Origin: a virus
IMG/VR virus record: IMGVR_UViG_3300030085_001116
Location: 1-20,315 of that record
Strand: one strand, 5' to 3'
Length of the DNA: 20,315 nt
A program made the translations under genes and the position numbers. Shown piece by piece: positions 120 through 5,140 of this stretch (position 1 is the stretch's first letter; each line of letters starts with the position of its first letter). The notes below the pieces were generated by a model. The model saw only the letters and a program-made list of their open reading frames with translations. It was not told where the DNA came from and made no database searches.

Positions 120-1147
120 GTCCAATTATCACGATTCATAAATTTTACTAAAACGTCTTTGAGTATACTTCCACTGTGAACTGAGTCATATCCAACATGA
201 CCAGGCTGTGAATTTATCTCTAAAACATATGGTGGAACTTTCTCTCTGTCTTCAGATACAATTAAGTCTACACCAATCCATTTACCACCAATTGATTTAT
301 CAACTTTTAAACAAGTTTCTTTTTCTAATTCTGTTAATTGAAATTTTTCTGGTTTAGAACCTTGATGAACATTACTTCTAAAATCACCATCTGCAAGTGG
401 TCTTTTCATTGCACCCATGATTTCACCAGCAACCATCATAACACGAACATCAAAATCTATCTCAATATATTCTTGAAGTATAAGTCCTCTTTCAGAACCT
501 AACTTATTAATAATTTGTGCAGATGATAATAGTTGAGCTTCATCTTTAATTTTAAGAACACCAACTCCACCAGTTCCTAAGATTGTTTTGAGAACAACTG
601 GAAACTTACCACCAATACGTTTATGAATATCTTCTAATTTATCTAAGTCATTCACTAAAACCGTAAAGGGTTGTTTGATATAGTCTTGTTCTAATTTTAA
701 ATAAGTATGATACTTATCCCAACAAATATTATGAACTGACATAGGGTTAATAACCTTAACACCATTAATAGTAAGTTCACGATAGAAGTTTTGCCAACTT
801 GGAAAATCATTTGATTTAGACCTATTGAATATAATAGTATTATCATCTATCTCAAATTGATTATCTTCTTTATCACATATAAAAAGTTTGTTATCTTTTT
901 TTAGAATATATGTTTCTTCTATTTTCGCTTTAAATCCAGTTAATCCTAGTTCCTTACCAAATGATAACATTTTGTCAGCAAGTGGGTCAGTTTCTTCTTT
1001 TGAATCATCACCAACATTACTAGGGTCATTATAGATTACAACAAAACGATATGGTTTGTCTGGAGCCTGCTCAGCAATGTAATCCCTAAGAGAGATTACA
1101 CCACTTTCTTTATCTGAGGCAGCACTCACATACATTTGATTATCCAT
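116..1147 (-). CDS. RimK-like ATP-grasp ligase
   Basis: A 343-residue protein with ATP-grasp features: an N-terminal alpha/beta region, a central glycine-rich ATP-binding loop (KTILGTGGVGV, about residues 187-197), the DVRVMMVAGEIMGAMKR strand pattern typical of RimK and glutathione-synthetase relatives (about 233-249), and a C-terminal metal-binding VLEINSQPG segment (about 311-319). Known relatives join an amino acid or peptide carboxylate to an amine using ATP; RimK adds glutamates to ribosomal protein S6. The target here cannot be told from sequence. The start ATG overlaps the 3' end of the preceding small gene by 8 bases; an alternative ATG lies four codons in. It sits between regA and gene 43, where T4 has no such gene, and its stop codon overlaps the gene 43 promoter. 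Family call is firm; substrate unknown. Confidence 0.75.
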   Translation of the reverse strand: MDNQMYVSAASDKESGVISLRDYIAEQAPDKPYRFVVIYNDPSNVGDDSKEETDPLADKMLSFGKELGLTGFKAKIEETYILKKDNKLFICDKEDNQFEIDDNTIIFNRSKSNDFPSWQNFYRELTINGVKVINPMSVHNICWDKYHTYLKLEQDYIKQPFTVLVNDLDKLEDIHKRIGGKFPVVLKTILGTGGVGVLKIKDEAQLLSSAQIINKLGSERGLILQEYIEIDFDVRVMMVAGEIMGAMKRPLADGDFRSNVHQGSKPEKFQLTELEKETCLKVDKSIGGKWIGVDLIVSEDREKVPPYVLEINSQPGHVGYDSVHSGSILKDVLVKFMNRDNWT

Positions 1148-4488: not shown

Positions 4489-4944
4489 TTACTTGATAGT
4501 AATTAGTTGAGGTTTTTTCTCCTCTGGTACAATTCTCTCTAATGAGATAGTCAACATCCCATCTTTAAGTTCTGCACCGTTTACTACGATATCATCTGCA
4601 AGTGTAAACTTTCTTGTGAAGTTCCTTCCAGAAATACCTTTGTAAAGAGTGTACTCGTCAGTTGCACCAGTGTCTTTATCCTTCACTGATTTAACTGTAA
4701 GAACTCCCTCAGCAACTTCCACTTCGATATCTTTTTTACCGAAACCAGCGACAGCCATTTCGATTTCAAATTTGTAATCTTCTGTCTTTTGGATGTTGTA
4801 AGGGGGAAAACCAGTTGACTCTGCTTGATGAGTTACATAGTCGAACAATCTATCGAATGTTCTATCGAACCCTACAGCATAGGGAGTCATGTGGTTATAA
4901 TCAAACGCCTGAAGAGCGTTTCTAAGTGTGCTTAAGTTTGTCAT
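4489..4944 (-). CDS. Hsp20 / alpha-crystallin small heat shock protein
   Basis: A 151-residue small heat shock protein of the IbpA-like class. The N-terminal region has the PYAVGFDRTFDRLFDYV pattern of class A bacterial sHSPs (about 21-37). The alpha-crystallin domain spans about residues 47-140 with DYKFEIEMAVAGFGKKDIEVEV, GISGRNFTRKFTLADDI and the conserved DGMLTISLER (128-137). The C-terminal I-x-I type tail is LITIK. It should act as an ATP-independent holdase, perhaps for phage or host proteins late in infection. Hsp20 genes occur in marine T4-like phages. AAAGGAG sits before the ATG but is enclosed in a hairpin. A perfect late promoter box and a structured leader precede it; a terminator follows, so it forms a single-gene late unit inside an early region. 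Confidence 0.93.
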   Translation of the reverse strand: MTNLSTLRNALQAFDYNHMTPYAVGFDRTFDRLFDYVTHQAESTGFPPYNIQKTEDYKFEIEMAVAGFGKKDIEVEVAEGVLTVKSVKDKDTGATDEYTLYKGISGRNFTRKFTLADDIVVNGAELKDGMLTISLERIVPEEKKPQLITIK

Positions 4945-4945
4945 T

Positions 4946-4973
4946 TTATATCTCCTTTATTAAGCAAGATTAA
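4946..4973 (-). promoter_or_regulatory. ROSE-like RNA thermometer hairpin at hsp20 RBS
   Basis: In the hsp20 leader, UUGCUU (4967-4962) can pair with AAGGAG (4957-4952) around an AAUA loop, with a G-G opposition flanked by U-A and C-G pairs. This is the U(U/C)GCU against AGGA layout known from ROSE thermometers upstream of bacterial ibpA-type genes. AU pairs with two bulges can extend the stem to 4946 and 4973. Weak pairing would hide the Shine-Dalgarno when cool and release it when warm. Family match is by my reading; no folding was run. Confidence 0.5.
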
Positions 4974-4979
4974 TATTTG

Positions 4980-5100
4980 CATACCCATAAGGCATATGCG
5001 ATAATGATAATGTCGGTGGGCCGCACCGATAAATCCTAAGATGTCTTACCATCTCTGTACCAATTAAGGTCTATTAAGGCCTCGTACTGGACATTATCAC
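4980..5100 (-). ncRNA. Structured leader RNA upstream of hsp20
   Basis: GATAATGTC (5098-5090 in the RNA) pairs perfectly with GACATTATC (5014-5006); a U-A and a G-U pair can extend the helix to 11 bp. Inside it are AGATG/CATCT (5054-5050 with 5043-5039), CGGUG/CACCG near 5028-5024 and 5018-5014 (its last pair competes with the closing helix), and a GUAC/GUAC pairing (5087-5084 with 5060-5057). After the closing helix, GCATA/TATGC (5000-4980) forms another hairpin. The predicted late transcript starts at the first base of the closing helix. There is no convincing ORF and no tRNA T-loop or CCA end. Could be a cis-regulatory leader or a separate small RNA. Confidence 0.5.
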
Positions 5101-5103
5101 TAT

Positions 5104-5111
5104 TATTTATA
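5104..5111 (-). promoter_or_regulatory. T4-type late promoter box for hsp20
   Basis: Exact TATAAATA on the minus strand (5111-5104), the T4 late consensus read by gp55-RNA polymerase. With T4 spacing the start would be G 5098. Confidence 0.75.
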
Positions 5112-5112
5112 T

Positions 5113-5140
5113 GGGGATTAATTTTCAAAAATCAACCCCC
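5113..5140 (-). terminator. Hairpin after the DUF932 gene
   Basis: A 12-bp stem with two G-U pairs: GGGGGUUGAUUU (5140-5129), loop UUGA, AAAUUAAUCCCC (5124-5113). It lies 15 bases after the DUF932 stop and one base before the late box. The following bases are AU-rich but not a U-run, so it may be a weak terminator or an insulator. Confidence 0.45.

Follow-up and report, generated by a model that had tools for sequence, protein, structure and literature searches.

A conserved structured RNA element with a kissing loop in hsp20 leaders, tmRNA loops and other transcripts of uncultivated viruses

Background

The manA RNA (RF01745), a structured marine and cyanophage RNA associated with chaperone leaders, was reported before ibpA (hsp20-type) chaperone genes (PMC2864571). 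The phages Mosig and Melnitz carry a glutamine (glnA) riboswitch (RF01739), which in Melnitz follows a permuted tmRNA at a distance of 53 nt (PMC9004378). Together, manA and the phage glutamine riboswitch show that such phages collect aptamer-like RNAs next to their tmRNAs. To our knowledge, few phage RNAs are both conserved and folded into a complex tertiary structure. Elsewhere, the purine riboswitch fold and the tRNA elbow are built on a three-way junction in which P1 stacks on a hairpin, and the loop of that hairpin forms a kissing contact with another loop.

We analyzed a stretch of viral DNA of 20,315 nucleotides (IMG/VR virus record IMGVR_UViG_3300030085_001116; hereafter, the window), in which a late promoter was proposed to drive a structured RNA leader upstream of a phage hsp20 gene. 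The original prediction suggested that this RNA was selected to fold, was neither a tRNA nor an ORF, and could be checked by folding, by an Rfam search and by a covariance model. We show herein that comparative sequence evidence confirms the minus-strand product of 5098-5006 as a genuine folded RNA, and that the prediction understated it. The element, carried by several kinds of marine phage, shows unusually clean covariation that extends to a kissing loop. It also reveals that phages swap structured RNA modules at two docking sites, one in the loop of permuted pre-tmRNA and the other in the late hsp20 leader, so that the cargo of phage tmRNA precursors, and its purpose, becomes a directly testable question.

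The element adjoins manA in some viruses and the two occur side by side, but manA is a separate 192-position family that the element does not match. The glutamine riboswitch is, like the element, a phage-borne RNA domain, yet its 53-position model gives no match to the element and its topology is different. ROSE thermometers share a UUGCU anti-Shine-Dalgarno motif with the constant part of the hsp20 leader; this likeness belongs to that neighboring part, not to the element. The stacked P1 and kissing hairpin of the purine riboswitch and tRNA elbow recur in the element, but here the arm that carries the kissing loop lies past an inner four-way junction, and there is no sequence relation. Of the known systems, manA, the phage glutamine riboswitch and permuted tmRNA come closest, and direct tests showed the element to be none of the three. 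It is a new family of an already familiar sort, the orphan structured RNAs, and is unusual in docking inside other RNAs.

Results and discussion

The window locus

The hsp20 gene lies at 4489-4944 on the minus strand (Pfam HSP20, E 3.4e-17). For comparison, 80 viral loci with relatives of this gene were collected, which yielded 49 distinct leaders. Upstream of the window gene, an exact T4-type late promoter TATA box, TATAAATA, is found at 5104-5111 (-), as originally predicted. By itself, TATAAATA occurs in the window at chance frequency (2 versus 1.88 expected). The box is nonetheless credible as a promoter, because it is retained in 42 of the 49 distinct leaders and because its spacing to the helix is fixed in the 13 leaders that bear the element. 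T4 late TATA boxes are located about one helical turn upstream of the transcription start (PMC2988020); given this spacing and the conservation of the box, G5098 is a fair prediction for the +1 of the hsp20 transcript.

The core of the element extends over 5006-5098 (-), and is recognized by covariance models R1 (96.4 bits, E 2e-23) and R2 (99.2 bits, E 1.3e-23), scores that are partly by construction since the window is one of the 19 model-building sequences; 29 further members lie outside the 19. The covariance-model match, 5001-5101, is wider than the core, and R2 gave this one match on the window, with no second copy in the window's own 20,315-base fragment record. The range first proposed, 4980-5111, spans more than the element, since a further hairpin at 4999-4979, distinct from it, also falls inside; the functional part reaches only to about 5006. 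ARAGORN called no tRNA on the element in the window, and Rfam 15 gave nothing over the element at the gathering cut-off and no meaningful match at E<=10. The earlier view that it is neither a tRNA nor an ORF is supported.

Two arms at 5103-5090 and 5014-5001, 75 nt apart, are 93% complementary over 14 nt. The minus strand of 5100-4942 folds (ViennaRNA) with an MFE of -41.4 kcal/mol (z = -2.58), and 1 of 200 shuffles was equally stable. As this single-sequence fold is only moderately above shuffles, a chance inverted repeat, or a DNA element without RNA function, might be considered. Such an explanation is hardly credible and was discarded, being refuted by covariation over 48 distinct homologs: every one of the seven P1 pairs shows compensatory changes, as do P2, P4, P5 and P6, and G-U pairs recur on the element strand.

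Fold and covariation

Homologs were searched for on viral contigs with degenerate patterns derived from hsp20 leaders. Forty-eight distinct homologs were found, all in uncultivated viruses, with lengths of ~93-130 nt; under R1 and R2, true members score at least 64 bits and chance matches at most 21 bits. Several contigs are near-identical, so that contig counts exceed the number of independent cases.

The structure comprises six helices (P1-P6) and a kissing loop. P1 pairs GATAATG (5092-5098) with CATTATC (5006-5012), beyond which optional outer pairs occur; all seven pairs show two-sided changes, and 92.5% of the cells are paired. According to the covariation, P1, which is free in sequence, leads into a P1/P2/P6 junction, and P2 opens into P3, P4 and P5. 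P2 pairs UCC (5089-5091) with GGA (5034-5036), as indicated by RNAalifold and covariation (3/3 pairs two-sided, 99.3% paired). P3 (5072-5086) is a short hairpin, UAC...AUA, in which two of the three pairs are near invariant and the third is frequently mismatched. P4 (ACC/GGU, 5059-5070) varies in length among homologs, and its three pairs all show two-sided changes. The hairpin P5 (AGAUG-GUAAGA-CAUCU, 5039-5054) has a conserved hexaloop, with 5/5 pairs two-sided and 99.6% paired, while P6 (UCGGUG-C-GGCC-CACCGA, 5013-5029) has two-sided changes in 6/6 stem pairs.

The loops of P3 and P6 (L3 and L6) lock the fold through a four-base-pair kissing helix, with conserved unpaired bases at the junctions. 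In the window, GGCC at 5022-5019 (L6) pairs with GGCC at 5081-5078 (L3), which is of the G-C type. The L3 NGCC : L6 GGCN' pairing is Watson-Crick in 48 of 48 distinct homologs, with three pair types (C-G in 25, G-C in 14, A-U in 9); the base N was unconstrained in the search patterns, and L6 lay outside them.

Over the 48 distinct homologs, 96.4% of the base-pair cells are paired, versus 69.2±0.8 in shuffles, and 25 of 31 pairs have changes on both sides. The covariation score is 0.696, compared with 0.184±0.010 in shuffles (0/500 as high) and at most 0.109 in slid controls, in an alignment (A2) that was fitted to the covariance model and is biased towards structure. The same picture emerges from A1, a structure-blind MAFFT alignment of 19 hand-chosen homologs (0.648 versus 0.176). 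These values support the contention that the RNA was selected to fold. Recurrent G-U pairs, such as the 16 in the outer pair of P5, identify the RNA strand as that of hsp20.

P1 can be wholly exchanged between homologs, GATAATG/CATTATC in the window being replaced by GGTTACCAAG/CTTGGTAACC in L081, while the junction bases stay conserved. This implies that the fold itself is what selection acts on, and the element is a conserved tertiary RNA fold whose P1 sequence is free. The 9-bp closing helix originally described holds in part: the seven pairs of 5098-5092 with 5012-5006 covary as P1, but the two inner pairs belong to other helices, since in the comparative structure U5091 and C5090 pair with A5034 and G5035 (P2), and A5013 and G5014 close P6. 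A single-sequence MFE pairing of CAGU with AUUGG in the left part was likewise rejected in favor of the covarying P2, P3 and P4.

The element in hsp20 leaders

The hsp20 leader is built from modules. Its constant parts are an inverted repeat and the late TATA box, then a bulged hairpin and a helix that contains UUGCU and sequesters the Shine-Dalgarno sequence. The element is optional, being present in 13 and absent from 36 of the 49 distinct leaders. In the 13 element-bearing leaders, its helix starts at a constant distance from TATAAATA, and P1 occurs in two lengths. Three genomes (G040, G033 and G044) encode hsp20, yet their hsp20 leaders read without the element and the sole confident copy in each sits elsewhere; the G040 leader retains the promoter-like and Shine-Dalgarno-helix parts. 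The idea that the RNA belongs specifically to hsp20 as a cis-acting leader was dropped, as the element is absent from most leaders and present in unrelated contexts, including tmRNA loops, RNA arrays and other genes.

The site can hold other RNAs. L006 and L010 have a different folded insert where the element would be, and in L005 this second insert lies upstream, with the element downstream of a duplicated TATA box. The second insert is unrelated, ~50 nt long and folded (AGGAAGGAUUGUCCGUAUGCGAGGAGUUUUGGGACUCGCCACUUCCU); sought elsewhere, it was found only in hsp20 leaders, apart from two unrelated matches. The hsp20 leaders of L071 and L072 contain yet other inserts.

The constant part nearest the gene (4950-4999 (-)) lies outside the element, and consists of the bulged hairpin (4999-4979) and the Shine-Dalgarno-sequestering helix (4970-4950). 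Its UUGCU motif is retained in 47 of the 49 distinct leaders. The Melnitz leader matches ROSE_3 (RF02523) with 34.1 bits (E 0.0027), below the 43-bit cut-off, and the window gave no match to ROSE. A ROSE-like constant leader, with UUGCU and a bulged G, can be read in the window (4999-4950 (-)), in all compared hsp20 leaders, and at L145:1117-1179. The constant leader is thus a candidate ROSE-like thermometer, and a phage-borne heat-shock thermometer, if true, would be of interest.

Directly upstream of the late TATA box is an inverted repeat, GGGGGTTGA..TTAATCCCC, without a T-run. The repeat (5113-5140 (-)) was seen in most homologous hsp20 leaders, with compensating changes, and is a candidate for either the transcript end of the DUF932 gene or a promoter dyad.

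The element inside permuted tmRNA precursors

In 14 contigs, the intervening loop of a permuted (two-piece) pre-tmRNA (RF04321; alpha_tmRNA, RF01849) holds the element, with P1 closing on the precursor stem (L097, L100, L101, L112, L116, L164, L172, L181, L185, L189, L191, L194, L195 and L197; L101 is cut by the contig end and was placed in the loop by its similarity to L100). The permuted tmRNA family itself excludes the element, and the loops of relatives are without it or contain other inserts. L148, a relative without the element, has the same precursor stem with a small loop. In G040 (146.6 kb), the sole confident copy is inside the tmRNA loop; the corresponding region (L195:1000-1740) reads as an all-RNA operon of a late promoter, the permuted tmRNA with the element in its loop, tRNA-Gly, manA and a terminator. 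L172 has tmRNA, tRNA-Gly and manA in the same order.

In L112, the pre-tmRNA acceptor stem runs on into P1 without a break (MFE -64, z -3.4). This continuity would suit a stability or processing module, a tight fold capping a 5' end or the tip of a stem that keeps nucleases out or fixes where processing occurs and has no specific partner, as would the constant spacing of the element at the predicted +1 in hsp20 leaders, its position directly after a TTGACA/TATATA-like promoter (read from sequence) in L123 and L128, and the other, unrelated folded inserts at the same two sites. We consider such a role unlikely, since a mere barrier would need neither the conserved junction bases nor the kissing loop, and in several contexts the element is internal or 3'-terminal.

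Other inserts and ORFs were also observed in these precursors. The permuted phage tmRNA loops at L125:1328-1455 and L147:260-365 (G003) have different folded inserts, closed on the precursor stem. Small ORFs with ribosome-binding sites lie inside the intervening segment at L097:330-480, at L100 5768-6000, and in L199 (Melnitz) after 1555.

The element beside stable RNAs and before genes

Outside the loop, the element often adjoins stable RNAs. In L157, a one-piece tmRNA, the element and tRNA-Lys follow one another, a few bases apart, in an array of 12 tRNAs. The element directly precedes tRNA-Trp in L193 and tRNA-Leu in L122, lies within a few bases of manA RNA in L106, L125 and L160, and shares an array with manA in L195, L197, L172, L185 and L164. 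Intrinsic-terminator-like hairpins with T-runs follow it in L160 and L177. The element shows a free choice of position, with repeated placement beside or inside stable RNAs.

Placement between RNA genes that require separation, together with a complex pseudoknotted fold, might suggest a self-cleaving ribozyme that processes its carrier transcripts (pre-tmRNAs, tRNA arrays and late leaders). This seems quite improbable: no Rfam ribozyme family matched at E<=10, and the relative L148 has a permuted tmRNA but no element.

Protein-coding neighbors are equally mixed. The element is found upstream of exonucleases (L123, L130) and of small ORFs (L081, L090, L094 and L124-type phages), and a gp33-type late regulator is also among its downstream features. 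In many contexts the element lies 10-60 nt before a start codon, as a cis-regulator would. A riboswitch-like cis-regulator, whose junction would bind a metabolite and control the next gene, comparable to the glutamine riboswitch of these phages or to their candidate riboswitches manA and wcaG, is accordingly a minority view that we take seriously. The combination of a multi-way junction, a kissing loop and conserved bases at the junction is one that aptamers typically show, and the two precedents cited above, manA (which the element abuts) before ibpA and the riboswitch after the Melnitz tmRNA, point in the same direction. However, the downstream features are unrelated (hsp20, exonucleases, the gp33-type late regulator, tRNA-Leu, tRNA-Trp, tRNA-Lys, small ORFs and a terminator), no expression platform common to the contexts was seen, and in the pre-tmRNA there is mostly no gene directly downstream. 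Such heterogeneity of contexts, and a location in a spacer that is removed by tmRNA maturation, argue against an ordinary riboswitch.

A proposed autonomous RNA module

We give an even chance to the explanation that the element is an autonomous RNA module, for whose expression any strong transcript that happens to carry it would serve. Judging from its contexts, the element behaves as a plug-in module, present in one copy per record and in sites as varied as the beginning of the late hsp20 mRNA and the spacer loop of the permuted tmRNA precursor. Its function would lie in the RNA domain itself, which probably works as a non-coding RNA by binding a partner from the host or the phage, such as a protein, a ribosome-associated factor or a small molecule, and which may be freed or exposed through normal processing of the carrier transcript. 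In the window, the late promoter would place the element at the very start of the hsp20 mRNA, with the separate ROSE-like thermometer candidate further downstream. We infer that the fold is the functional unit and that it acts via a partner, rather than as a regulator of one downstream gene. The conserved junction bases speak against a mere nuclease barrier.

The autonomous module draws its support from covariation far above shuffles and slid controls over 48 homologs, and equally over the initial 19; from the kissing pair, complementary throughout; from the heterogeneous contexts; and from the three hsp20-encoding genomes with the element elsewhere. One confident copy was found in each long record, including the 146.6-kb G040, but most records are fragments, so that the figure of a single copy in each genome depends chiefly on a few long ones. 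Against this explanation stands the frequent position just before a start codon; in addition, the conservation of the CAGUAC..GCCUU..UAG and GUAAGA segments, including the P5 loop, was partly forced by the scan patterns.

A bolder proposal, which we put forward only tentatively, is that the element represents a new class of viral non-coding RNA. It would occur as a single copy per genome in ocean phages of several unrelated groups, act in trans on host translation or RNA processing, and spread by being grafted onto the stems of abundant transcripts. Chief among these would be the permuted tmRNA spacer loop, which would then be a phage expression dock for exchangeable RNA modules.

Distribution of the family

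When 84,980 genomes of bacteria and archaea (257 Gb) were scanned with the patterns, four matches were obtained, coding or chance, with a best score of 20.9 bits and no member among them. When seven queries, six of them variants of the element and one the window leader, were compared by blastn with 50,697 phage records, only short chance matches and no homolog of the element were obtained; the window query matched the neighboring leader of Mosig and Melnitz, not the element. Over related element loci, Rfam gave no match except the surrounding tmRNA models, and calls by ARAGORN, RF00005 and RF00023 fell beside or around the element, never on it. No prior description of the RNA was found in open-licence papers, which cannot be searched by sequence. 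At present, the family appears to be known only from uncultivated viruses.

Within one phage lineage (L124, L126, L151 and L193), the gap between the element and the gene is empty, or contains one of two accessory hairpins, or contains tRNA-Trp and a hairpin, which looks like further exchange of RNA modules. In L094, a permuted tmRNA and two tRNAs (420-719 (-)) lie ~6.6 kb away from the element on the same contig.
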